A stretch of 64,000 bases of DNA from the NCBI RefSeq assembly GCF_019966515.1, contig NZ_JAIMIB010000001.1:558001-622000 (forward strand), given 5' to 3'. Source of the DNA: Roseovarius aestuarii (GTDB lineage Bacteria > Pseudomonadota > Alphaproteobacteria > Rhodobacterales > Rhodobacteraceae). Below, piece after piece: positions 30,170 to 40,652 of this stretch; the first letter of the stretch is position 1, and every line of letters starts with the position of its first letter. The position numbers were made by a program, and so were the translations under genes. The notes under the pieces are model-generated. The model did not search any database and was not told the DNA's origin. It was given only the letters and a program-made list of their open reading frames with translations.

Positions 30170-30880
30170 TCAATCCGGATCGTAAATATAACCGATCCCA
30201 CGGACAGTCTTGATGATCTGAGGCTTCTGCGGGTTCGGTTCGATCTTGCGGCGCAGACGCGAGATACGAATGTCGATGCTGCGGTCAAACGGATCCCACG
30301 ACCGGTCATGTGCCTGCTCGAGGATCTGATCGCGATTGAGAACACGGCCCTTGTTACGGGCAAAAAGGCTTAGCAGGTTAAACTCCATCGCAGTCAGCGG
30401 CACTTCGTCCCCGCCGGAGGTCTTTAGCTGCGCCGCGGTCAGGTCCAGTGTAAATTCACCGAAAGGAGCGGTCGCCGGCGCCTCACCGGAGGTGGGCTTA
30501 TCAACCGGTTCGGCCTTGCGTCGCAGCACCGCTTTTACGCGCGCTTCAAGCTCGCGCAGGTCGACGGGTTTCGCCAGATAATCATCCGCCCCCATTTCAA
30601 GGCCTACGATCTTGTCAATCACCTCGCCCGCCGCCGTCAGCATCACCACCGGGACCTGGTTGCTCGTCCGAAGCGACCGCAACGTCGTTAACCCATCTTC
30701 GCCCGGCATGTTGATATCCAGAAGGATCAGGTCGATATCTGTTTCGTCCAGACGCGCGCGCAGTTCATCGCTGTTCGCGGCAGCAACGATATTGAAGCCG
30801 CGCTTAGACAGGTATTCCTGCAACATCTCGCGCACATCGCGCTCGTCATCGCACACTAATATGGTTGAGGTAGAGTTCAT
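30170..30880 (-). CDS. OmpR-family response regulator
   Basis: A 236-residue two-component regulator. The receiver domain (1-118) has the acidic pair DDE at 11-13, the phosphoacceptor Asp55 in LILLDINMPGEDG, the Thr of VVMLTAAG and the Lys of DYLAKPVDL. After an unusually long Pro/Ala/Thr linker (PVDKPTSGEAPATAPFGEF) comes a winged-helix DNA-binding domain with NLLSLFARNKGRVLNRDQIL and ISRLRRKIEPNPQKPQIIKT. The ATG overlaps the stop of the upstream hybrid kinase (ATGA), so kinase and regulator are an operon and probably cognate. Confidence 0.94.
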   Translation of the reverse strand: MNSTSTILVCDDERDVREMLQEYLSKRGFNIVAAANSDELRARLDETDIDLILLDINMPGEDGLTTLRSLRTSNQVPVVMLTAAGEVIDKIVGLEMGADDYLAKPVDLRELEARVKAVLRRKAEPVDKPTSGEAPATAPFGEFTLDLTAAQLKTSGGDEVPLTAMEFNLLSLFARNKGRVLNRDQILEQAHDRSWDPFDRSIDIRISRLRRKIEPNPQKPQIIKTVRGIGYIYDPD

Positions 30881-33135
30881 TCCGGCTCCTGCTCTGCTGA
30901 AGCGATGATATCGGCGACGAAACCACGCAACTCCTTGGGTGATACGGGTTTTTCAACACAAGGCCGCTTTGACTCGGCCAGAAAGGTTTGCGAGGCACGC
31001 CCCATCGTATCTCCGGTTACGAATCCGGTTTTGTCAATCAGGTGCGGGAAGTCCCGCTTGATAATCTCAAAAAATCCGCGCCCGTCTGTTTCGGGCATGT
31101 TCAGATCGCTCAGGATCAGCCCGTACTCATGCTGCTGCATGCTTTGCACCGCTTTGCTCGCCTGGCTGAACACATCCACCTCAAATCCGCTGCGTGTCAG
31201 AATTTCTGCATTAAGTTCCGCGACCTCGGTTTCGTCATCCAGAATGAGAATGCGGATTTTGCGATCAGTCGGCTGGTGTATTTGCCTGGTTTCCGGCTTC
31301 GGGGGCGCGGCGACATCGACGGGCAGGAAAATCCTGAAGACCGAGCCGCCTTTGGGCGCAGATGACAGGGAAATGCTGCCGTTATGCGACTGGATGATCC
31401 GATGGCACAAGGCCAGCCCTATACCGGTCCCCTCGCCGACATCCTTGGTTGTGAAAAACGGTTCAAATACCCGACCGCGGATGCTGTCGGGGATGCCAGG
31501 CCCGTCATCCTTGACGATGATCTCGACCCCCTTCTTGTCTTTTGTCGCGCGGCTGGTAACGGTGATTTCAGAGCCTGTTTCGCCATCGCGCATCGCCTGT
31601 TCAGCGTTCAGAATGAGGTTGATGAACACCTGCGTGATCTGATCCGGATCGGCACAGAGCTTGGGCAGGCCCTCGGCCAACCGGCATTCCATCGACGCGC
31701 CATCACCCTTGTCACCATAGCGCGCCACGTCCACCGCCGTCTGGATAATCTCATTGATATCGACACGCTGCATCCGGGCCGGTTGCTGACGCGCCATGGT
31801 CAGAAAGGTCTTGACGATCTTGGCACAGCGTTCAGCGGCATGGCTGATCTTTTCCACCTGGCGCAAGGTTTCGGCGTCTTTGCAATCTTCACGCAACATC
31901 AGTGAATGTCCTACCACAACGGAAAGCGGGTTGTTCAGTTCATGGGCAACCCCGGCCAGCAATTCTCCCATCGCCGACAGCTTTTCATTCTGATAAAGCT
32001 GGTCCTGCTGCTGCGCGAGTTCTTCTTCGATCTGCATTTGCTCGCTCAGATCGCGAGTGTGCGACACGATCACCTCTTCCCCATCATAGTCGATCAGCCG
32101 CGCCGAGACCGCCCCCCAGAACCGTTCGCCCTTGGCATTCAGATACTGAGCCTTGAATTCCGTGACCGATCCTTTGCGACGCAGCTTTTTAAGATAACCT
32201 GCGCGGGTATCGGGATCGGCATAGAACTGTTTGGAGCTGTCGACCCGGCCAAAAAGCGATATCGTTTCGGGGCTGCTGAACAACACCTCGCCCGTGTCCG
32301 CCTTGGTCATCTGAATTGGCGTGGGACACGCTTCGAGAACGCGGCGGATCATCGCCTCGCGCTCTTGCTGATCGCTCAGGTCCATGATGGCGGTCACCAC
32401 GTAGGTATCACCCTCGAATTCGACCAAACGACCCCATGATGTGGTGGCACAAAGCTCTCCGGCCGCGTTCCGCAGGGTGATGTGATAATCGTCAACCCGG
32501 CCCTTCTTTCGCAACTCGCTGATATAGTTTTCACGGTCAATAGGCTTCACATAATGCTCTAACGCGCTGCTCGTATTACCAAAAAGCGAGACCGCGCCGG
32601 GCGACCGGTAGAGAATGCGACCATCTTCAAGCCGCGCCATAACAATCACCATCGGGCTGGTTTCCAGCACCGTCCGCAGGATGTTTTCCTGTTCCCGAAC
32701 AACCGCTTCGGCCTGAAGGCGCTCGGTCACGTCAATATTCGTGACCACAAAGCCGCCTCGGCTTGTCGGGCTGAATCGCGTTTCGTAGAACGAGCCGTCG
32801 GTCAGTGCGACAATACGTTTTTGACGGCCCTCTGTCTTTGTGAACGCCCGCCCCGATGCAAGTCTTTCGGCCATATATTCCTCGACCCGTCCAATAGCAT
32901 CCGCATACTGGCCCCTCTCGGCGCCAGCCCTGACCAGATCTTCCCAGACCGCACCGCGCTCGATCAGGTCGCCGATCATTGGAAACATGTCGACATAGCG
33001 TTGGTTGCAGGTGACGAGCCGATGTTGGGAATCATAGACAGCGATGCCTTCGGATAGAGCCTCAATCGCATCCCACACAAGATCTGCCGCTTCGGGATTG
33101 CGTTCGAAAGTCGCTGGTTCAGTTCCGATTGTCAT
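30877..33135 (-). CDS. hybrid sensor histidine kinase (PAS-PAS-PAS-HisKA-HATPase-REC)
   Basis: A 752-residue soluble sensor with no membrane segment. Three PAS-like domains are visible: about 18-140 (ALSEGIAVYDSQHRLVTCNQ), 150-258 (VIVMARLEDGRILYRSPGAV) and 265-365 (PIQMTKADTGEVLFSSPETI). The H-box is AGVAHELNNPLSVVVGH (His398), followed by N and G boxes (LILNAEQAMRD, DDGPGIPD, GEGTGIGLALCHRI). A C-terminal receiver (about 627-745) carries Asp677 in LILSDLNMPETDG. This layout implies internal phosphorelay. It shares its PAS-kinase order and sequence with the kinase at 38150-39616. Confidence 0.94.
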   Translation of the reverse strand: MTIGTEPATFERNPEAADLVWDAIEALSEGIAVYDSQHRLVTCNQRYVDMFPMIGDLIERGAVWEDLVRAGAERGQYADAIGRVEEYMAERLASGRAFTKTEGRQKRIVALTDGSFYETRFSPTSRGGFVVTNIDVTERLQAEAVVREQENILRTVLETSPMVIVMARLEDGRILYRSPGAVSLFGNTSSALEHYVKPIDRENYISELRKKGRVDDYHITLRNAAGELCATTSWGRLVEFEGDTYVVTAIMDLSDQQEREAMIRRVLEACPTPIQMTKADTGEVLFSSPETISLFGRVDSSKQFYADPDTRAGYLKKLRRKGSVTEFKAQYLNAKGERFWGAVSARLIDYDGEEVIVSHTRDLSEQMQIEEELAQQQDQLYQNEKLSAMGELLAGVAHELNNPLSVVVGHSLMLREDCKDAETLRQVEKISHAAERCAKIVKTFLTMARQQPARMQRVDINEIIQTAVDVARYGDKGDGASMECRLAEGLPKLCADPDQITQVFINLILNAEQAMRDGETGSEITVTSRATKDKKGVEIIVKDDGPGIPDSIRGRVFEPFFTTKDVGEGTGIGLALCHRIIQSHNGSISLSSAPKGGSVFRIFLPVDVAAPPKPETRQIHQPTDRKIRILILDDETEVAELNAEILTRSGFEVDVFSQASKAVQSMQQHEYGLILSDLNMPETDGRGFFEIIKRDFPHLIDKTGFVTGDTMGRASQTFLAESKRPCVEKPVSPKELRGFVADIIASAEQEPE

Positions 33136-33289
33136 AGGCTTTTTTTATCCGTGCAATGTTTCAGCCCTTTTTCGGGAAGGCAGTCTTTTGTTTCAATTGT
33201 AACAGCAGCGGCCGGTTTCTGATCCAACGCTCCGCCTTACTATATTGTATTTATTGTATTTTTCAATTTTTCGATTTTTTACTTCGGAA

Positions 33290-33305
33290 GTTTCAATACT
33301 GAAAC
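33290..33305. promoter_or_regulatory. perfect dyad GTTTCA-ATAC-TGAAAC
   Basis: A 16-base perfect inverted repeat in the divergent region between the hybrid kinase and the cysK operon. It is about 90 bases upstream of the candidate leader peptide and about 155 bases from the kinase start. Its form is that of a dimeric regulator site. The binding protein is unknown. Confidence 0.45.
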
Positions 33306-33393
33306 GAAAAAGCGCCTTGGGTGACAACAGACTGCAACCTTGACCCTTCAGAAGTTTTCCAATCGCAACAATCCGACGCGAAGGAAAACCAGG

Positions 33394-33519
33394 ATGAAAC
33401 ATACATTTCCACCCCCCGGTGCAGCCAACGCGCCTTATCCCGCCCGACCGCGGTGTCACCGCGATTTTCCCGCAACCTGTCATCCGGGCACGGCCCCGGC
33501 ACCACAACGAAAGGTCTGA
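33394..33519 (+). CDS. possible 41-residue leader peptide of cysK
   Basis: ATG at 33394, preceded by GAAGGAAAACC, opens a frame of 41 codons that ends with TGA at 33517-33519, four bases before the cysK ATG. The peptide begins MKHTFPPPGAANAPYPARPR and contains two Cys and nine or more Pro codons, both of which can stall or sense translation. Its tight spacing to cysK and good ribosome site favour a translated upstream ORF. It could equally be chance in GC-rich DNA, and no homologue is recognised. Confidence 0.35.
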   Translation: MKHTFPPPGAANAPYPARPRCHRDFPATCHPGTAPAPQRKV

Positions 33520-33523
33520 CCAC

Positions 33524-34675
33524 ATGTCCCATATCAAGGCATCCATTCTCGACACGATCGGCAACACGCCGATTGTGAAAATCAACAATATCGGCCCTAA
33601 CGACGTCGATCTTTATGTCAAGCTTGAGGCGTTCAATCCGATGGGCTCGGTCAAGGATCGTCTCGCACTCGGCGTCATCGAAGCAGCCGAACGCGACGGG
33701 TCGCTCAAACCCGGCCAGACCGTTATCGAAGCCACCAGCGGCAACACCGGTATTGGTCTGGCAATGGTCTGCGCACAAAAAGGCTATCCGCTGGTCGTGA
33801 CCATGGCTGAAAGTTTCAGCGTTGAGCGCCGCAAGCTGATGCGGTTCCTGGGGGCCAAGGTTGTCCTGACTCCGGCCGCGCAAAAGGGCAGCGGCATGGT
33901 GGCCAAGGCACGCGAGCTGGCTAAAAAACATGGTTGGTTCATGTCCCGGCAGTTTGAAAACCCCGCCAATACCGAAGTACATAGCCGCACTACGGCGCAG
34001 GAAATCCTGCGCGACTTTGGCAAGGATGGGTTGGATTACTGGGTAACCGGCTTTGGCACCGGCGGCACCCTCACCGGCGTATCCCGCGTGCTGAAGAAAG
34101 ACAGCCCAAAAACCAAAATTATCGCCGCCGAACCGGACAATGCCCGGCTCATGGGCAGCGGCATGGTGCAGCCCTTCAATGCAGATGGCAGCGCCGCCGC
34201 CAGCCACCCCGAATTCCGCCCGCACCCGATGCAGGGCTGGTCGCCCGATTTCATCTCGGATCTGGCGAACCAATCACTTGAAGCCGGCTATATCGACCAG
34301 ATGCAACCGGTTGCCGGGGCAGATGCCCTGGCGATGGCCAAGGCGTTGGCCTGCAAGGAAGGCATTTTTTGTGGCATCACCGGCGGCGCCACCTTCGCCG
34401 CCGCGCTTCAGATCGCCAGGTCGGCACGCAAGGGATCGAAAATCCTCGCCATGCTGCCAGACACCGGAGAGCGCTATCTCTCAACCCCGCTGTTCGAGGA
34501 CGTGCCGACTGACATGACCGCAGATGAGATGGCGCTGTCGCATTCCACGCCGGGCGCGCGTTTCGACCTACCCACCCCTAACGGAGCCGGTAACGCCGTC
34601 AGCAACGGCACTCCGCAGACCCCGATCACCACCGGCCGTCAGGCCAACGCGCCAACACAGAGCGTCGACGCCTAA
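33524..34675 (+). CDS. cysK: cysteine synthase A (O-acetylserine sulfhydrylase)
   Basis: PLP enzyme that makes cysteine from O-acetylserine and sulfide. The 383-residue product starts MSHIKASILDTIGNTPIVKI and has the PLP lysine Lys44 in NPMGSVKDRLALG, the substrate loop EATSGNTGIGLAMV (69-82), and the PLP-phosphate loop GFGTGGTLTGVSRVL. After the usual end (TGERYLSTPLFEDVPTDM) there is a non-conserved low-complexity tail of about 50 residues rich in Asn, Gly, Thr and Pro (PTPNGAGNAVSNGTPQTPIT), longer than in typical CysK. It is followed after 27 bases by a PLP decarboxylase, suggesting an operon. Confidence 0.93.
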   Translation: MSHIKASILDTIGNTPIVKINNIGPNDVDLYVKLEAFNPMGSVKDRLALGVIEAAERDGSLKPGQTVIEATSGNTGIGLAMVCAQKGYPLVVTMAESFSVERRKLMRFLGAKVVLTPAAQKGSGMVAKARELAKKHGWFMSRQFENPANTEVHSRTTAQEILRDFGKDGLDYWVTGFGTGGTLTGVSRVLKKDSPKTKIIAAEPDNARLMGSGMVQPFNADGSAAASHPEFRPHPMQGWSPDFISDLANQSLEAGYIDQMQPVAGADALAMAKALACKEGIFCGITGGATFAAALQIARSARKGSKILAMLPDTGERYLSTPLFEDVPTDMTADEMALSHSTPGARFDLPTPNGAGNAVSNGTPQTPITTGRQANAPTQSVDA

Positions 34676-34702
34676 ACTTCCGACGCAACAGGAGCCGTCA
34701 AA

Positions 34703-36118
34703 ATGAAACAGGTACATTCCTTCCCCACCCTCGCAGGTCCGCTTGCTGCAGCCTCGGCCTATGCAACCGGGTATCGCGAGAGCAAGACCAACCTGCATCC
34801 GACGGCAACACTGGCCCAGTTGCGAAACTCCTTTGGCGGCGATCTGCCCGCCAAGGGCCAACCCGGCGAACAGGTTATTGCCGATCTCATCAAGGCCGCA
34901 GAGCCCGGGCTGGTCGGCAACACTCAGCCCGGGTTCCACGCCTGGGTCATGGGCAGTTCGCATCCGGTTGGTGTCGCCGCAGATTGGCTGACATCGGTCT
35001 GGGGGCAAAACGCCGCGCTCTACCAAGGTTCGCCAGCCGCCGCTACCGCCGAAGAGACCGCCTGCGACTGGCTGCTCGACATTCTCGATCTGCCGCGCGA
35101 GGCATCCGTTGGTATCACCACAGGTGCAACAATGGCAGGCTTCATCGGCCTTGCCGCCGCTCGCGACGAACTGCTGCGCCGGGCCGGTTACGACTTTGCC
35201 GAAACCGGCCTGCAATATGCGCCACCGGTGACAGTGTTCGTCGCCGAAGACACTCACGCGTCGAACCTTGCGGCGCTGCGGTATCTGGGTTTCGGAACCA
35301 ACAACATCGTCGCGGTCGCCTGCGATGATCAGGGGCGGATGATCACCGATGACATCGCCCGGCATGTGGCAAGGGTCAGCGGCCCCCGGATCATCGTCGC
35401 CACCGCCGGTCACATCAATTCGGGTGCCTTTGACGATTTCCACGCCCTCGCCGATCTGGCCGAACGGCATGGCGCCTGGCTGCATGTCGATGCTGCCTTT
35501 GGCCTCTGGGCGCGCGCCAGCGTTTCGACCCGCAGCCTGACCAACGGGATTGATCGCGCAGACAGCTGGTCAACGGATGGACACAAATGGCTGCAAATCC
35601 CCTTCGACGCGGGTTTTGCCATCGTCCGGGACAGCCAGGCCCATCGCCGCGCCATGAACATCACCGCCGGCTATCTGCCCGACGACCCTGATGACGGTCG
35701 CAATGCGACTCACTTCAACACCGAACTGTCGCGGCGTGCACGTGGTTTCACGGTCTGGGCAACGCTCAAGGCGCTGGGCCGTGAAGGGATCGCGGACATG
35801 ATACGCAACCATTGCGACTGCGCCAGCCTTCTTGCCCATAAGCTACGCAGGCTGCCCGGTATCCGGATTCATAATGATGTGATGCTGAACCAGCTGATCC
35901 TGTCCTTTGACCGGGGCCGGGGTGATGCCGATGCCAACCGAATGACCCAGGCGATGGAAGCGGCGCTGAACGCCGACGGGCAGCATTTCTTTCGAACCGC
36001 CACTTGGCAAGAGCGTTGCGTTCTGCGGGTTTCGATCATCAGCGTTGATACCGGTCCGGAGCATATCCAGACGCTTGCGCAAAAAATCGAAGCGCTCTGG
36101 CACGATATCCGCCGCTAG
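34703..36118 (+). CDS. group II pyridoxal-dependent amino-acid decarboxylase
   Basis: A 471-residue decarboxylase of the aromatic amino acid/glutamate decarboxylase fold. Visible features are the cofactor-stacking His185 in AEDTHASNLAALRY, Asp263 in AWLHVDAAFGLWA, and the Schiff-base lysine in STDGHKWLQIPFD (Lys295). The usual tyrosine/tryptophan pocket residues cannot be judged. It lies 27 bases after cysK with an AACAGGAG ribosome site and ends at a terminator. Its position suggests a cysteine-derived or related substrate such as cysteine sulfinate, but aromatic substrates are equally possible. Confidence 0.88.
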   Translation: MKQVHSFPTLAGPLAAASAYATGYRESKTNLHPTATLAQLRNSFGGDLPAKGQPGEQVIADLIKAAEPGLVGNTQPGFHAWVMGSSHPVGVAADWLTSVWGQNAALYQGSPAAATAEETACDWLLDILDLPREASVGITTGATMAGFIGLAAARDELLRRAGYDFAETGLQYAPPVTVFVAEDTHASNLAALRYLGFGTNNIVAVACDDQGRMITDDIARHVARVSGPRIIVATAGHINSGAFDDFHALADLAERHGAWLHVDAAFGLWARASVSTRSLTNGIDRADSWSTDGHKWLQIPFDAGFAIVRDSQAHRRAMNITAGYLPDDPDDGRNATHFNTELSRRARGFTVWATLKALGREGIADMIRNHCDCASLLAHKLRRLPGIRIHNDVMLNQLILSFDRGRGDADANRMTQAMEAALNADGQHFFRTATWQERCVLRVSIISVDTGPEHIQTLAQKIEALWHDIRR

Positions 36119-36162
36119 TCAGGCGGAAGGCCAGCGGCCACTCACGGTGTCGCTTGCTGAAA

Positions 36163-36191
36163 CCTCGCCGGAGAAATTCGGCGGGGTTTTT
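36163..36191 (+). terminator. intrinsic terminator after the decarboxylase
   Basis: CCTCGCCG (36163-36170) pairs with CGGCGGGG (36179-36186), with one T-G pair and an 8-base loop, then five T. It closes the cysK-decarboxylase operon. Confidence 0.85.
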
Positions 36192-36420
36192 CCTTCTATG
36201 CCGGATATCCGGCGCCACGCGTTCGGGCACGGTTTTGCTGAAACATATGAAACGCAATACCGCTAGGCGCGACCAAGGGCTGAAACACAGAAATCTTATC
36301 CTGTCTCACAACCCGGGCGCGGTAGATATCTCCTCGCTTACCTCCCTGCCCCGTGTTCGGGGACACATCATCTGTCAGGCTTTGGAGCCAAACGACTTTG
36401 ACCACAGAAAGGAAAATAAC

Positions 36421-36561
36421 ATGGCCCGCTTCAAGATAAGCAACCGCTTCGCTGCATCCCAGATGGCGCTCACCTCTGCCCGCAATGGGCGTTCAAAACC
36501 CGTGCCCGAGACAAAACAAGGATATTTCCAACGTATCGAATTTGACGTCGCGATGATCTGA
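36421..36561 (+). CDS. small basic protein, unknown function
   Basis: A 46-residue open frame beginning MARFKISNRFAASQMALTSA and ending RIEFDVAMI, preceded by GAAAGGAAA seven bases upstream of the ATG. It is basic, with no membrane helix or signal. The region upstream (36192-36420) has no other gene. The frame extends upstream but without a good start. Coding is suggested by the ribosome site and codon use; no family is recognised. Confidence 0.45.
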   Translation: MARFKISNRFAASQMALTSARNGRSKPVPETKQGYFQRIEFDVAMI

Positions 36562-36651
36562 GATGTGGGCGCCTGGCTTATCAGCCGGGGCGCGATTGCA
36601 CGGCCTGACGTCACAAACCAAATACTTCTAGGACTTACAAAATTGAAAACA

Positions 36652-36680
36652 TTGACCGTTTAAGGCAATCTTGCGAAAAT
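36652..36680 (+). promoter_or_regulatory. candidate promoter of the globin-cyclase-kinase operon
   Basis: TTGACC (36652-36657) is followed after 17 bases by GAAAAT (36675-36680), 64 bases upstream of the globin ATG. The -35 match is good and the -10 match moderate. The local stretch is the most AT-rich part of this gap. Confidence 0.35.
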
Positions 36681-36743
36681 CCGGTTGCGCTGGCTTGATG
36701 CCAAAAGCAAGGCGTCGCGCCATTAGCGTGAATTGGGGGATTT

Positions 36744-37115
36744 ATGGAAAAGGCACTTTTTGACAAATATGGCGGTTTTTCAACCGTCAGCAAAATCGTC
36801 CTGTCGCTCTATGACAGGTTGCTTGAAGATGATGATGTCGGGCCATTCTTCGATGATGTCGACATGCCCAGACTGATCGACCACCAGACGAAATTCGTCT
36901 CGTCGCTGATGGGCGGGCCAGCCTCGTTTACCGACGATCACATTGAACGCGCCCACAGCCACATGGACATCGACCATCTGCATTTCGACAAGCTGAAAGC
37001 GATCGTGTCGGAAACGCTGGCCGATTTTGACGTGGCTGAAGACGATATCAAGACAGTGCTCAGCGCGTTCGAGGACCGGCGCTCGCTTTTGGTCGAGAAA
37101 CCCAATGTCAATTGA
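36744..37115 (+). CDS. group 1 truncated haemoglobin
   Basis: A 123-residue two-over-two globin. LFDKYGGFSTVSKIVLSLYD is the usual helix A-B start with Tyr23 at B10; FFDDVDMPRLIDHQTKFVSS carries Gln48 at E11; LMGGP is the EF turn; and His71 in IERAHSHM is the proximal F8 haem ligand. Tyr-B10 and Gln-E11 together mark forms that bind O2 and NO tightly. GGGGGA precedes the ATG. The gene overlaps the next one, a nucleotidyl cyclase, by 11 bases. Such linkage suggests the globin senses or supplies a haem-bound gas for the cyclase and kinase, rather than only detoxifying NO. Confidence 0.92.
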   Translation: MEKALFDKYGGFSTVSKIVLSLYDRLLEDDDVGPFFDDVDMPRLIDHQTKFVSSLMGGPASFTDDHIERAHSHMDIDHLHFDKLKAIVSETLADFDVAEDDIKTVLSAFEDRRSLLVEKPNVN

Positions 37116-38148
37116 AGCCATCAATGAACAATTACTACGTGCAATCGGCGTGGGCGTCGCCCTGATTGCGCTCGACACCTACGCGGTGCGCTACCGGAAC
37201 GATACGTTCAACGAATGGTTCGGTGAAAACGAGGGCGCTTCGACCGTGCCCGATTTTTTCCCGTCGCTCGATCTCGATGAGCTCAAGACCGCGATAGAAA
37301 GTGGCGGAAAACTGACCACCGAAACCTCTTTCAAGCTGCGTCGCCGCAAAATGACCGTGGCGCTGGAATTCAACCGCGCTGATGACGCGAGCGAAAACAT
37401 CGCCGTGCTGGTCTGTCAGAACATCACTCGCATCAAGGAACTGGAATCAATGATAGATTCCTATTCGATGATGGTTGAACGCAATACGCATGAGATTAAA
37501 CGCGAGAAGGAGCAGGTGGAAAAACTGCTTCTGAACATGATGCCGCGTGCCGCCTATGAAGAGTACAAGACTTTCGGCGTGGTCTCGCCGCGCCTCTTTG
37601 GTCCGGTCTCGGTGCTGGCGCTGGATTTTACGGATTTCGATGCCCTGCTGTCCGAGAATGAACCCGGCGTCGTGGTCAGTGAGCTTAATGATATCTATAG
37701 CGCATTCGACCGGATCGGGGCGCAATTCGGCTGCCAGCGCATCCGCACCAATGGCGACAGTTATGTCGCCGTGTCAGGCGTGCCGGACCCGAACGAAGGC
37801 CATGCGAAGGCCGTTGCCAGTTCCGCTGTCCGGTTCCTGCGATATCTGGAACGTCGCAACGCAACGCATCCAATCCAGTGGAACGCGCGGATCGGCGTCG
37901 CCGCCGGATCGGTCATCGGCTCGGTTGTTGGCGCCCAAAACTACATTTACGATGTGTTTGGCCCAACCGTTTCCGCGGCACTCAAATCCCGGTCCGCGGC
38001 GCAGCCGATGACCCTTGCGACAAATCAGGATTTTGCTCGTCAGGTCAGCGACAAATTCCTTGCCTCGGCGGTGACGGGTGACACCAAACCGTTCGAAAAC
38101 GGTTTTGCGCTGATCGAGGAAATAGCCGATCAGGACCGGAAAGGCTGA
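37105..38148 (+). CDS. PAS-like/class III nucleotidyl cyclase with altered catalytic residues
   Basis: A 347-residue soluble protein: PAS-like N-terminal domain (1-108), coiled-coil signalling helix (109-145, LESMIDSYSMMVERNTHEIK), and class III cyclase domain (165-300). Both metal-binding Asp are present: Asp174 in VLALDFTDF and Asp218 in RTNGDSYVAVSG. Substrate positions Arg214 and Asp283 (YIYDVFGPT) resemble adenylate cyclases. But the transition-state Asn and Arg of the usual TVN-x3-R pattern are Ser290 and Lys294 (TVSAALK), so activity may be low or lost. The ATG at 37105 lies inside the globin gene; the stop is next to the kinase start, indicating one operon. Confidence 0.9.
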   Translation: MSIEAINEQLLRAIGVGVALIALDTYAVRYRNDTFNEWFGENEGASTVPDFFPSLDLDELKTAIESGGKLTTETSFKLRRRKMTVALEFNRADDASENIAVLVCQNITRIKELESMIDSYSMMVERNTHEIKREKEQVEKLLLNMMPRAAYEEYKTFGVVSPRLFGPVSVLALDFTDFDALLSENEPGVVVSELNDIYSAFDRIGAQFGCQRIRTNGDSYVAVSGVPDPNEGHAKAVASSAVRFLRYLERRNATHPIQWNARIGVAAGSVIGSVVGAQNYIYDVFGPTVSAALKSRSAAQPMTLATNQDFARQVSDKFLASAVTGDTKPFENGFALIEEIADQDRKG

Positions 38149-38149
38149 T

Positions 38150-39616
38150 GTGACTATGCAAGCGGCACCGGATATCCAACTTCCTGCCGACAAAGCGATG
38201 CGCGATATCGCCGAATTGCTGCAAGACGGGATTGCCATCTTTGACGCGGATGCTCGGTTGCGCCTGGTGAATACAAGCTTTCGCAACGCCTATCCGGGCC
38301 TATCGGATATCCTGAAACCCGGTCTGTCCTGGTCGCTTTTCCTACACGAGGCGGTCAATCGGGGCGCCATGCCGCTGCCGGTAAGTAAACGCCTGAACAC
38401 CATCGAGACCGGGCTGAGCGATACCGTAAGCCCTTCAAACAACGTACAGATGCCGGCGACTTCGGCGACAACCCTCACTCTAAGATTAGGGCCAACAAGC
38501 GATGGCGGCTTTGCGCTGACCCAATCCGAAGCCATCGGTCCGGTTGATGATACCGAAGCGGCGCGTGATGCTGAAATCCTGTTGCGCAAAGTGCTCGAGG
38601 CATGTCCCAGCAGCCTTATCATGTCGCGCATCGCTGACGGGCAAATCCTCTATCGCTCGCCCGCCGCCACGGAATTGCTGGGCACCGACAAAAGCAGCTT
38701 TTCGCATTTCGCCCATGTCAGCGAGCGCGCCGATTTCGTCACGCTGCTGCTGCCCGACGCCGCCATCGACGACATGCGCGTCACCTGCCTGCGCCCGGAC
38801 AAGACCGAATTTCCGGCACAGATTTCGGCCAGGCTGATCGACTATCGCGGCGAGGATGTCATTGTCGCAACTGTTGAAGACCTGACCGACGAACTGGCGG
38901 TTCAGGCTGAAATGGACCGTCAGAAAGAGCAGTTGTTTCAATCCGAAAAGCTCTCGGCCCTGGGGGAGCTGCTGGCGGGCGTTGCCCACGAGTTGAACAA
39001 CCCCCTGTCGATCATCGTGGGTAATGCCGAAATCCTGCATGAAGAGATTGAAGACGAGGGCCTGAAACAACGTGTCGGCAAGCTCAGTCAGGCCGCGCAT
39101 CGCTGTGTTCGTATCATTCGCTCTTTCCTGTCCCTCGCGCGTCAACAGCCGCTCGACCTCAGACCGCAGGACCTGGCCAATCTGATCGAGAACGCAATCG
39201 AAGCAGTGGCAAACGAGGCTGAAACCGTCAATATCAGGCTTGACGCCACGCCACATCCGGATGCCCCCGCCGTCATCGCCGATGAGGTGCAGCTGACACA
39301 AGTCATTATCAACCTGCTGACCAATGCCATACAGGCCATGCAGCAGGCGGGTGTCGGGGACCAGATCGTGGTGGGATGCCACTGGAATGCCAATACGCTC
39401 ACGCTCAGGGTCACCGACAACGGCCCGGGTATTAGCGATGACATCAAAACCCGCATTTTCGACCCCCTTTTCACCACCAAGGATGTTGGCACCGGGGTCG
39501 GGCTGGCCTATTGCCACCGCATCATCGCCGCCCACAAGGGTCAGATCAGCCTTGAACGGACCACGACCCCCGGGGCCACTTTTTCCGTTGAACTGCCGAT
39601 CGCCGTTAACGAATGA
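38150..39616 (+). CDS. sensor histidine kinase (two PAS-like domains, HisKA, HATPase)
   Basis: A 488-residue soluble kinase. PAS-like domains lie at about 18-125 (LLQDGIAIFDADARLRLVNT) and 145-250 (LIMSRIADGQILYRSPAATE). The H-box is LLAGVAHELNNPLSIIVGN (His280), with N box INLLTNAIQAM, G1 DNGPGISD and G2 GTGVGLAYCHRI. It lacks a receiver. The order and wording match the hybrid kinase at 30877-33135, so the two are paralogues; a missing partner could be the OmpR regulator beside that kinase. Start is GTG at 38150 or ATG at 38156, just after the cyclase stop. Confidence 0.93.
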   Translation: MTMQAAPDIQLPADKAMRDIAELLQDGIAIFDADARLRLVNTSFRNAYPGLSDILKPGLSWSLFLHEAVNRGAMPLPVSKRLNTIETGLSDTVSPSNNVQMPATSATTLTLRLGPTSDGGFALTQSEAIGPVDDTEAARDAEILLRKVLEACPSSLIMSRIADGQILYRSPAATELLGTDKSSFSHFAHVSERADFVTLLLPDAAIDDMRVTCLRPDKTEFPAQISARLIDYRGEDVIVATVEDLTDELAVQAEMDRQKEQLFQSEKLSALGELLAGVAHELNNPLSIIVGNAEILHEEIEDEGLKQRVGKLSQAAHRCVRIIRSFLSLARQQPLDLRPQDLANLIENAIEAVANEAETVNIRLDATPHPDAPAVIADEVQLTQVIINLLTNAIQAMQQAGVGDQIVVGCHWNANTLTLRVTDNGPGISDDIKTRIFDPLFTTKDVGTGVGLAYCHRIIAAHKGQISLERTTTPGATFSVELPIAVNE

Positions 39617-39713
39617 ACATGTTGGCAAAAACCATCCTGCAAAGGCGTTGCGGCAGACGCGCGCCCCCGGCGCGACTGACATTGTTCCCAATACTATTGT
39701 TTGAGGGTAGAGA

Positions 39714-40652
39714 GTGACGCAAACACCTGCCAGCGGCGCAACCAGACCAGATACGAGAACCAGAATGCCAAAAGTACAGGTGGTTGTGCCGACTTACAAT
39801 CATGCCCCCTTCATCGCGGAAACGCTCGACAGTATCCTTGCGCAGGAAACGACGCATGATTACCAGATCCTGATCCACGACGACGCGTCGACCGATGGCA
39901 CCCGTGAAATCATTCAGGACTATGCCAAGCGCCACCCTGGCCGTTTCGAATGTATTTTTCAGGAAGAGAACCAGTTTCAGCAGGGCTGCAGGATCGCGTC
40001 ACTGGTCTGGCCGCATTACAAGGCGCAATATATCGCCTATCTGGATGGTGACGATCTCTGGATTCGACCGGATAAGCTTCAGATCCAGGTTGACTTCATG
40101 GATAAGAACCCGCGGTGCATGATCAGCCAGACCCATTCGATCTTCTTCAACAGCAATACCGGCGAAACCATCGAACACTTTCCCCCGCCTGGAAAGCGCG
40201 GCGAGCGGACCTGTTTCGAAAATCTGGCGCCCGGCAACTATCTACTGTCTTCGGCGGTGATGCACAGGCGTTCGGCCTTGCCCAAACTGCCGTCGGACTT
40301 TGACGAGATCGGTTTTGGCGACTACGCGAAATTCGCTTTGATTGCCCGCAAAGGCTGGATCGGGCTGATCCATATCGAAGCAACCAAATACCGCATTCAC
40401 GACAAAAACATGTGGTTTGGCAAATCGCTTGAGGAACGCGTGGCAAAGACCCAAATCGTGCAGGCCTACGTGGCAAAATATGCCCCCAAACCCTTTGATG
40501 CCTACTGGAAGTCTGAAAGCACCGGTGTCCCGTTAACAGCGGAACAGCAAATTGCGGGCAACAAGGCGCGCAGGCTTCGAAACGGGGTCGATGAGATATT
40601 GGGCGTCTTTCAGAAACCACTCTTTAAGATCAGAAGATTGATCGGTATCTGA
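39714..40652 (+). CDS. family 2 glycosyltransferase
   Basis: A 312-residue GT-A-fold enzyme. QVVVPTYNHAPFIAETLDSI is the nucleotide-binding start, LIHDDASTDGTREI the base of the fold, and AYLDGDDLWIRPDKLQ the DxD metal motif. The C-terminal part (HRRSALPKLPSDFDEIGFGD) is like transferases that decorate surface polysaccharides. GTG at 39714 follows GAGGG; an ATG at 39765 is possible. First gene of the glycan cluster, about 100 bases after the kinase. Confidence 0.9.
   Translation: MTQTPASGATRPDTRTRMPKVQVVVPTYNHAPFIAETLDSILAQETTHDYQILIHDDASTDGTREIIQDYAKRHPGRFECIFQEENQFQQGCRIASLVWPHYKAQYIAYLDGDDLWIRPDKLQIQVDFMDKNPRCMISQTHSIFFNSNTGETIEHFPPPGKRGERTCFENLAPGNYLLSSAVMHRRSALPKLPSDFDEIGFGDYAKFALIARKGWIGLIHIEATKYRIHDKNMWFGKSLEERVAKTQIVQAYVAKYAPKPFDAYWKSESTGVPLTAEQQIAGNKARRLRNGVDEILGVFQKPLFKIRRLIGI

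Follow-up and report, generated by a model that had tools for sequence, protein, structure and literature searches.

What does a small haemoglobin do when it is encoded directly ahead of a cyclase and a histidine kinase (HK)? Truncated haemoglobins are widespread, and their role is mostly unclear. An operon in the window, the whole 64,000-nucleotide stretch of Roseovarius aestuarii DNA that was analysed, places one of them at the head of two signalling genes. An earlier note on this DNA proposed that the globin is a separate sensor subunit controlling both a second-messenger enzyme and a phosphorelay. We asked which parts of that proposal hold across related genomes and what the operon is likely to transmit.

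The operon and its neighbours

All three genes lie where the earlier note had placed them, with open reading frames and Pfam families in agreement. On the forward strand, the operon runs from a group 1 truncated haemoglobin of 123 aa (36744-37115; Pfam Bac_globin 9e-14, over cut-off) through a 347-aa protein with PAS-like, long-helix and class III cyclase-like parts (37105-38148, ATG start; Pfam Guanylate_cyc 2.5e-28) to a sensor HK (38150-39616, GTG start, alternative in-frame ATG at 38156; Pfam PAS_7, PAS_8, HisKA and HATPase_c). Globin and cyclase frames overlap by 11 bases, again as described before, and the kinase start lies a single base beyond the cyclase stop codon. Upstream of the globin, a 46-aa micro-ORF (36421-36561, forward strand) has a Shine-Dalgarno-like AAAGGA and shows protein-level similarity in related loci; whether it belongs to the globin unit is uncertain.

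The globin resembles group 1 truncated haemoglobins (trHbs) in sequence and in predicted structure. Its best PDB profile matches are group 1 trHbs, and its AlphaFold2 model has a 2/2 fold, with Foldseek TM scores of 0.84 to HbN and 0.81 to THB4. Alignment to solved group 1 globins places Y23, Q48 and H71 at pocket positions, which we take to be B10, E11 and F8, with F36 as CD1 and H47 as E10; these are the Tyr-B10, Gln-E11 and proximal His named earlier. Among 95 distinct globins, H71 occurs in all, and Y23 and Q48 in 94, as does H47; the single row without Y23, Q48 and H47 (L051) is cut at a contig end. H47-Q48 aligns with the HQ of Synechocystis cyanoglobin (1s69), and by sequence the protein is possibly a GlbN-type, endogenously hexacoordinate trHbN, with His-E10 as candidate ligand to the iron. 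We infer that it binds haem and an exogenous ligand.

The second protein is predicted to join a PAS-like domain to a cyclase fold through a helix. In its AlphaFold2 model (pTM 0.52), residues 1-106 form the PAS-like domain, 107-145 a single long helix and about 160-318 the cyclase-like domain, and the top structural match in Foldseek is human soluble guanylate cyclase (sGC). At E 0.01, Guanylate_cyc was the only Pfam family in the protein, with no PAS domain among the hits; of the PAS/class III cyclase described before, the class III domain is thus confirmed by Pfam, and the PAS domain appears in the model.

The third protein carries the expected kinase core. HisKA, HATPase_c and the H, G and F box motifs were all found, the N-box pattern gave no match in the motif check, and Pfam detected no receiver domain. 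The H-box His is intact here and present in 84 of 84 HK rows. Two further kinases, L070_HKd and L092_HKu, stand out in the HK tree by a branch length of 10, and they probably do not belong to the group.

A second kinase and a response regulator, both absent from the earlier note, lie on the reverse strand. The kinase is a hybrid HK (PAS domains-HisKA-HATPase-receiver by Pfam; 30877-33135), kin to the operon HK on the HK tree and divergently oriented with respect to the globin operon. The start of an OmpR-type response regulator (REC and Trans_reg_C by Pfam; 30170-30880) overlaps the hybrid HK stop by 4 bases. A gene for a cysteine synthase A-like PLP enzyme (33524-34675, inferred start; Pfam PALP, NCBIfam cysK just over cut-off) lies on the forward strand in the interval that separates the hybrid HK from the globin. 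A PLP-dependent decarboxylase (34703-36118, forward strand; Pfam Pyridoxal_deC 4.6e-52) is also encoded here, and both PLP enzyme genes are close to the globin unit in some relatives.

Conserved pairing of globin and cyclase

The globin gene lies immediately 5' of the cyclase gene in every ortholog locus. This holds for 100 of 100 loci (98 distinct), 80 of them from genome contigs (80/80) and 20 from a family sample (20/20), and the globin is also upstream in all 17 longer class-sample matches, two of which repeat family-sample loci. Across 295 family genomes, the globin (E <= 1e-15) and a full-length cyclase co-occur in the same 20, and each of the 21 globins adjoins a cyclase. The arrangement is far above chance. 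In-frame matches in Ruegeria suggested a globin-cyclase fusion, but stop codons divide the genes in 102 of 102 loci. Close to the end of a contig, genome G240 encodes part of a cyclase, 137 residues that are 90% identical to one from Ruegeria and that were kept outside the full-length count; no globin was found in this genome at the threshold. Four class-sample matches (L141-L144) have the catalytic domain only, at 34-43% identity and without a globin, and fall outside the family.

This exclusive pairing bears on a simpler account of the globin. It could have a house-keeping role, as an NO dioxygenase or in handling O2, and protect its neighbours or merely be co-transcribed with them, without being a sensor subunit. 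Published work ties group 1 globins with Tyr-B10 and Gln-E11, for example M. tuberculosis HbN and Tetrahymena trHb, to NO detoxification, and flavoprotein oxidoreductases, whose genes are close to the unit in many relatives, could act as reductases. Such a role sits poorly with a globin that, in the 295 family genomes, occurs only beside the cyclase, and Pfam found no flavoprotein among the scanned genes of the window (30170-40652). We regard it as quite unlikely. A globin subfamily confined to the side of a signalling partner offers a sensor function that can be tested.

The kinase is a frequent but less strictly placed companion. A related HK lies near the globin-cyclase pair in 73 of 80 loci and is absent in seven, two of which have short flanks; the L092 HK, an outlier on the HK tree, is included in this count. 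Neighbouring genes were counted with protein probes because greedy ORF calling gave antisense artefacts in high-GC loci. The three-gene order globin-cyclase-HK, whose conservation the earlier note had asked about, is exact in 37 of 80 loci (29 + 8). An OmpR-type regulator is also close to the HK in relatives, with HK and regulator together in only 5 of 20 wider regions.

Catalytic residues and the downstream kinase

The window protein retains only part of the residue set of a class III adenylate cyclase. It still has the two metal aspartates, D174 and D218, as well as D283, the adenine Asp; across the 98 distinct cyclase rows, neither D218 nor D283 ever varies. R214 stands where the adenine Lys is expected, S290 (codon 37972-37974) replaces the transition-state Asn, and K294 (codon 37984-37986) replaces the transition-state Arg. 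The protein has the fold and both metal Asp of the class, shows R214/D283 in place of the Lys/Asp substrate pair, and lacks the transition-state Asn/Arg. These missing residues were not foreseen in the earlier note.

Residue loss and a kinase directly downstream largely coincide. In the set of 98 distinct cyclases, 41 are followed directly by an HK, and every one of these lacks the Asn and/or the Arg; 53 keep both N290 and R294 and have no downstream HK, and none combines both intact residues with a downstream HK. The remaining four have lost one or both without an HK directly behind them: L063 and L064 (HQ), L018, whose HK is adjacent and divergent, and L079, with no HK behind the cyclase. 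A further 22 distinct cyclases follow suit: five of five with a downstream HK lack Asn and/or Arg, 15 of 15 without one keep both, and two are unreadable. In genome G125, a second globin-cyclase pair (D218Q, N290I and R294L by eye) has no HK within about 8 kb. With this pair and the four exceptions above, we dropped the notion that catalytic loss always comes with a downstream HK. The downstream HK has about one origin on the cyclase tree, so the cases that tie it to catalytic loss do not count as independent observations; an independent-pairs sign test found only two pairs and had no power (p = 1).

Sequence change in the HK clade falls disproportionately on the catalytic domain. Positions 290 and 294 changed 12 and 18 times in the clade, against a single change at either position in the remaining 55 rows, and in extra change they rank 10th and 2nd among 165 catalytic-domain columns. 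Arg294 is kept in 16 of 42 clade members, and Asp174 is lost in two (G036 and G125). The ratio of branch-length totals, HK clade to rest, is 1.69 (1.45-1.95) for the catalytic domain, 0.49 (0.45-0.54) for the PAS and helix, and 0.79 for the globin; L018 (branch 2.82) was excluded from these tests, and L022, L075 and L093, identical to other rows, were left out for the globin. Relative to the PAS-helix part, the catalytic domain thus changed about 3.4 times faster in the HK clade than in other rows, a contrast between domains that says nothing firm on a slowing of the PAS and helix.

These patterns weigh on a reading in which the cyclase is still active with unusual residues, so that the globin controls both second messenger and kinase, as the earlier note proposed. 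The three kept aspartates, two of them invariant, are in its favour, as are the conservative nature of the changes at 294 (Arg to Lys) and 214 (Lys to Arg). Moreover, Ma1120, with Ala at the Asn position and the Arg kept, and Rv1900c, with His at the Asn position, are both described as active cyclases, so loss of the Asn by itself is no proof of inactivity. The excess of changes at 290 and 294 in the clade, the disproportionate change of the catalytic domain and the loss of a metal Asp in two members all speak against an active enzyme, which we consider unlikely in the window.

A shared active site would also account for the incomplete residue set. The window protein would then supply the metal side of a heterodimer, a role comparable to that of mammalian C1 or of a single sGC subunit, with the Lys, Asn and Arg contributed by a second class III cyclase. 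Both sGC and mammalian adenylate cyclase function as complementary halves, the residues kept here are mainly the metal-binding set, and the genome has nine Guanylate_cyc matches, the window cyclase included. Only one match in the genome to the window cyclase reaches E <= 1e-3, however, so any partner would be remote; Asp174 is lost in G036 and G125 and Asp218, by eye, in the second copy of G125. We give this arrangement very little weight.

A proposed sensor relay and its known counterparts

Our preferred reading, to which we assign a probability of roughly 55%, is a haem sensor in separate parts whose cyclase protein, in the window clade, is a non-catalytic relay from globin to kinase. Sensing would fall to the truncated globin and transduction to the PAS-helix-cyclase protein, a layout like that of sGC with a stand-alone globin in place of the H-NOX domain. 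In relatives outside the window clade, the cyclase mostly has the full ATP cyclase residue set and would be expected to produce cAMP according to the ligand state of the globin. In the window clade, the transducer would now be a pseudocyclase, its transition-state Asn and/or Arg gone; because it keeps the fold, the metal Asp and the adenine Asp, it may still bind ATP.

The signal would start with a ligand that is probably O2 or NO, possibly displacing the distal His-E10. Through presumed physical contacts, the ligand state would pass to the PAS-helix part and on to the operon's own PAS HK, whose probable next targets are the neighbouring receiver domain and the OmpR-type regulator. Absence of the Asn, Arg and adenine Lys, together with the disproportionate catalytic-domain change in the clade, makes phosphorelay alone the likely output of the window operon. 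Of the separate globin controlling cyclase and kinase that the earlier note envisaged, the gene linkage stands and is conserved, and second-messenger control is doubtful in this genome.

The trio looks like a new gas sensor assembled from parts. More tentatively, and at somewhat less than even odds, we propose a two-subunit sensor across Alphaproteobacteria, made of a hexacoordinate truncated globin and a PAS-helix-cyclase protein and convergent with sGC, in which one branch became a pseudoenzyme relaying gas binding to a recruited HK and so moved its output from cAMP to a phosphorelay. Relatives that show the step from apparently active cyclase to pseudocyclase relay would allow a swap of signalling output to be studied in evolution. 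No described truncated globin-cyclase or globin-cyclase-kinase gene set appeared among the literature matches listed, subscription journals being mostly outside their scope.

Known systems share individual features with this one. By profile, the nearest solved relatives of the globin are cyanobacterial GlbN and Tetrahymena trHb, and Synechocystis cyanoglobin has His-E10 and Gln-E11 in common with it; to our knowledge, neither GlbN nor Tetrahymena trHb is tied to a cyclase or kinase. NosP is a stand-alone haem protein acting on neighbouring signalling enzymes, and we know of no H-NOX or NosP system with an intermediate PAS-cyclase protein. The sensor globin of globin-coupled sensors has a 3/3 fold. 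H-NOX is likewise reported to be a separate small haem protein acting via downstream signalling partners (PMC10746521). Both H-NOX and NosP differ in haem fold from the truncated globin here. Globin-coupled sensors combine sensor globin and output domain in one protein, as reported for AfGcHK and HemAC-Lm, in which the haem-carrying globin domain governs a kinase or a cyclase (PMC8697598; PMC12755159). Here, by contrast, a 2/2 truncated globin has its own gene, fused in 0 of 102 loci.

The comparison with sGC (H-NOX-PAS-coiled coil-cyclase) rests on the PAS-helix-cyclase layout that the predicted model has in common with it as its top structural match. In sGC, a haem sensor acts on a cyclase. 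That sensor is a fused H-NOX domain; the window cyclase has none, with Guanylate_cyc as its only Pfam family and a model that starts with the PAS-like domain, and the candidate sensor is instead a separate group 1 truncated globin. The enzymes differ as well, since the cyclases of relatives have ATP-type residues and those of the window clade lack residues for catalysis. If the proposal is true, the unit would be a bacterial counterpart of sGC put together from separate genes.

Globin and cyclase as a genetic pair

ORF coordinates bear out the positions and the 11-base globin-cyclase overlap that an earlier note had reported. The globin (36744-37115, +; Pfam Bac_globin, 9e-14) overlaps the cyclase (37105-38148, +; Pfam Guanylate_cyc, 2.5e-28), and one base separates the cyclase from the operon histidine kinase (HK; 38150-39616, +; Pfam PAS_7/PAS_8/HisKA/HATPase_c, without a receiver). 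Neither globin nor cyclase matched an NCBIfam model at E 0.01.

The globin is directly upstream of the cyclase in all 20 family loci and all 80 genome_contigs loci (the best 80 of 93 relatives confirmed in that scan), so this part of the gene order described earlier holds in relatives. These loci carry 98 distinct cyclases; one globin, cut by a contig end (L051), is counted as upstream. No globin-cyclase fusion occurred among 102 loci examined, a set with repeats of the window. Across 295 family genomes, 58 gave any cyclase match at E 1e-3 and 20 encode a full-length ortholog (identity 45% or higher); weaker matches were a second copy in genome G125 (33%), a fragment in genome G240 and partial matches to other cyclases. 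The reverse search with a globin profile (E 1e-15) returned the same 20 of 295 genomes, where 21 of 21 globins adjoin a cyclase, the 21st being that of the diverged G125 copy.

Cyclase matches occurred in 20 of 385 genomes of the class sample, with the globin upstream in 17 of 17 longer matches (two repeat the family sample; at L138 it lies ~230 bases from the cyclase) and no globin at four partial matches. In the phylum sample 3 of 398 genomes matched at E 1e-60, all from the same class. Judging partly by record titles, we take the relatives from the genome_contigs scan to belong to Rhodobacterales, Rhizobiales, Sphingomonadales, Kiloniellales and Sneathiellales. The closest cyclase among the matches listed in the genome_contigs scan (80%) is from an uncultured Roseovarius, and 10 of 60 genomes of the genus matched, making the unit patchy among close kin.

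The globin is highly conserved in its haem pocket. Among solved structures, profile comparison places it nearest to group 1 truncated globins (Tetrahymena, a cyanobacterial globin and HbN), and its structure model aligns to HbN with TM 0.84. All 95 distinct globins have F8 His, and 94 have B10 Tyr, CD1 Phe, E10 His and E11 Gln, the remaining row being cut there. In the alignment E10 His falls opposite the His of the HQ pair in Synechocystis cyanoglobin, and it would make an attractive switch. According to PMC7082302, Lys-E10 of THB10 and THB11 does not ligate reduced iron, so a ligand residue at E10 does not by itself prove ligation.

Several loci show irregular copies. The second G125 pair (L211, L212) has a globin that reads open with its His residues, and its cyclase match breaks near residue 34. 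G240 holds a 137-residue C-terminal cyclase fragment near a contig end (L023), 90% identical to a Ruegeria cyclase, and no globin at E 1e-15. Two distant loci (L133, L139) have in-frame stops within the cyclase match, reflecting either decaying copies or sequence errors. The only other Bac_globin match of the window genome (L122; 5594-6010, -, contig C5) shares 27% identity across the matched stretch, and the 12 kb fetched around it held no match to the unit's cyclase or HKs.

Kinase position and the cyclase active site

The HK link to the pair is common, not universal. The three-gene order of the earlier note is conserved in part: a related HK lies directly downstream in 37 of 80 genome_contigs loci (29 downstream only, 8 with both positions), but only upstream on the opposite strand in 36 (including L092, an outlier on the HK tree) and nowhere in 7, two with short flanks. 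The window carries both kinds, the second being a hybrid HK with an OmpR-type regulator (30170-33135, -). Downstream HKs without a receiver, most downstream HKs with one, and upstream HKs occupy separate parts of the HK tree. Searching 292 genomes of the order with the operon HK (E 1e-90) matched eight, seven with the cyclase. In 5 of 20 wider regions from the family and class samples an HK and regulator lie near the pair, one in the order HK-regulator-globin-cyclase (L169).

Loss of catalytic residues largely tracks a downstream HK. By position, we take the class III residues to be two metal Asp, Lys/Asp for adenine and Asn/Arg for the transition state. Published accounts bear out these residue classes. 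The window cyclase keeps D174, D218 and D283 and has R214, S290 and K294. Both Asn290 and Arg294 remain in 53 of the 98 distinct cyclases, and none of these 53 is directly followed by an HK; the other 45 lack at least one of the two residues, and 41 of the 45 have such an HK. All 41 belong to a single 42-member clade (SH-aLRT 99, on a quick tree that was not bootstrapped). A further 34 loci, 12 repeating counted cyclases, gave 22 others, of which two have in-frame stops and fall outside the counts: all 5 that have a downstream HK lack Asn and/or Arg, and all 15 that have none keep both.

The clade's catalytic domain has changed disproportionately. Within the clade 12 changes fall at position 290 and 18 at position 294, against a single change at each in the remaining 55 rows; by extra change in the clade they rank 10th and 2nd among 165 catalytic-domain columns. 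Of the 42 members, 33 have replaced K214 by R and two have lost D174. With domain branch lengths fitted on one topology (24 column resamplings per domain), the clade/rest ratio is 1.69 (1.45-1.95) for the catalytic domain, 0.49 (0.45-0.54) for PAS plus helix and 0.79 for the globin; as these are total lengths, only the between-domain contrast counts, ~3.4-fold more change in the catalytic domain relative to PAS plus helix.

The cyclase model comprises a PAS-like domain, a single ~39-residue helix and a cyclase fold (mean pLDDT 81), with domain placement uncertain at pTM 0.52. Its top Foldseek match is human soluble guanylate cyclase (E 9e-19), with a TM (by query) of 0.47 and an rmsd of 14 across 369 columns, as would fit a flexible layout. 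The helix may be of the signalling type described in PMC1592074.

These patterns suggest, with only moderate confidence, that the window cyclase is a pseudocyclase that would relay the globin signal to the operon HK. The catalytic shift happened about once on the tree and therefore amounts to a correlated history rather than a repeated experiment. By published accounts the cyclases Ma1120 and Rv1900c tolerate loss of the Asn, and 16 of 42 clade members keep Arg294. L063/L064 show residue loss without a downstream HK; at L018 the adjacent HK is divergent, and at L079 other genes follow the cyclase. Read by eye, the second G125 cyclase lacks the second metal Asp as well as both transition-state residues, and there is no HK within ~8 kb. 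For these reasons our confidence goes no further.

Putative signal path and neighbouring genes

The anatomy of the unit suggests a most likely path in the window genome. Ligand on the globin would alter its contact with the PAS domain and thereby the long helix, which, in complex with the operon HK, would alter kinase activity; phosphate would pass to the hybrid HK receiver or the OmpR-type regulator.

Neighbouring metabolic genes, which vary by clade, are candidate targets. OsmC and two flavoproteins lie upstream in the same direction in 22 of the 29 downstream-HK-only loci, and an alpha/beta hydrolase in 9; a methyltransferase accompanies 29 of the 36 upstream-HK-only loci. The eight loci with both HKs have cysteine synthase (8/8) and PLP decarboxylase (6/8).

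In the window, adjacent cysteine synthase-like and PLP decarboxylase genes (33524-36118, +) also lie near the unit in some relatives; our guess is that together they could turn a sulfur amino acid into its decarboxylated form, for example a taurine precursor. Upstream of the globin is a micro-ORF of 46 aa (36421-36561, +) that has a good ribosome site. Its counterparts (L042, L043, L045, L046, L047, L184, L189) share a C-terminal (F/Y)DxAMI and, except L045 and L184, an N-terminal RFxxSN; weak N-terminal matches lie between the OsmC and flavoprotein genes in L055, L057, L058 and L059. Counted by codon position, changes show no more than a slight excess at third positions.

Relation to known haem sensors

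Kinases and cyclases with a haem sensor fused to them or encoded alongside are already known. Among the matches listed from the open PMC literature, as far as their accessible parts go, we found no description of a truncated globin-cyclase(-kinase) gene set. Beside the known sensors the novelty is therefore that of a variant, not a new kind: the apparently new elements are a truncated globin as constant partner and an apparent pseudocyclase.
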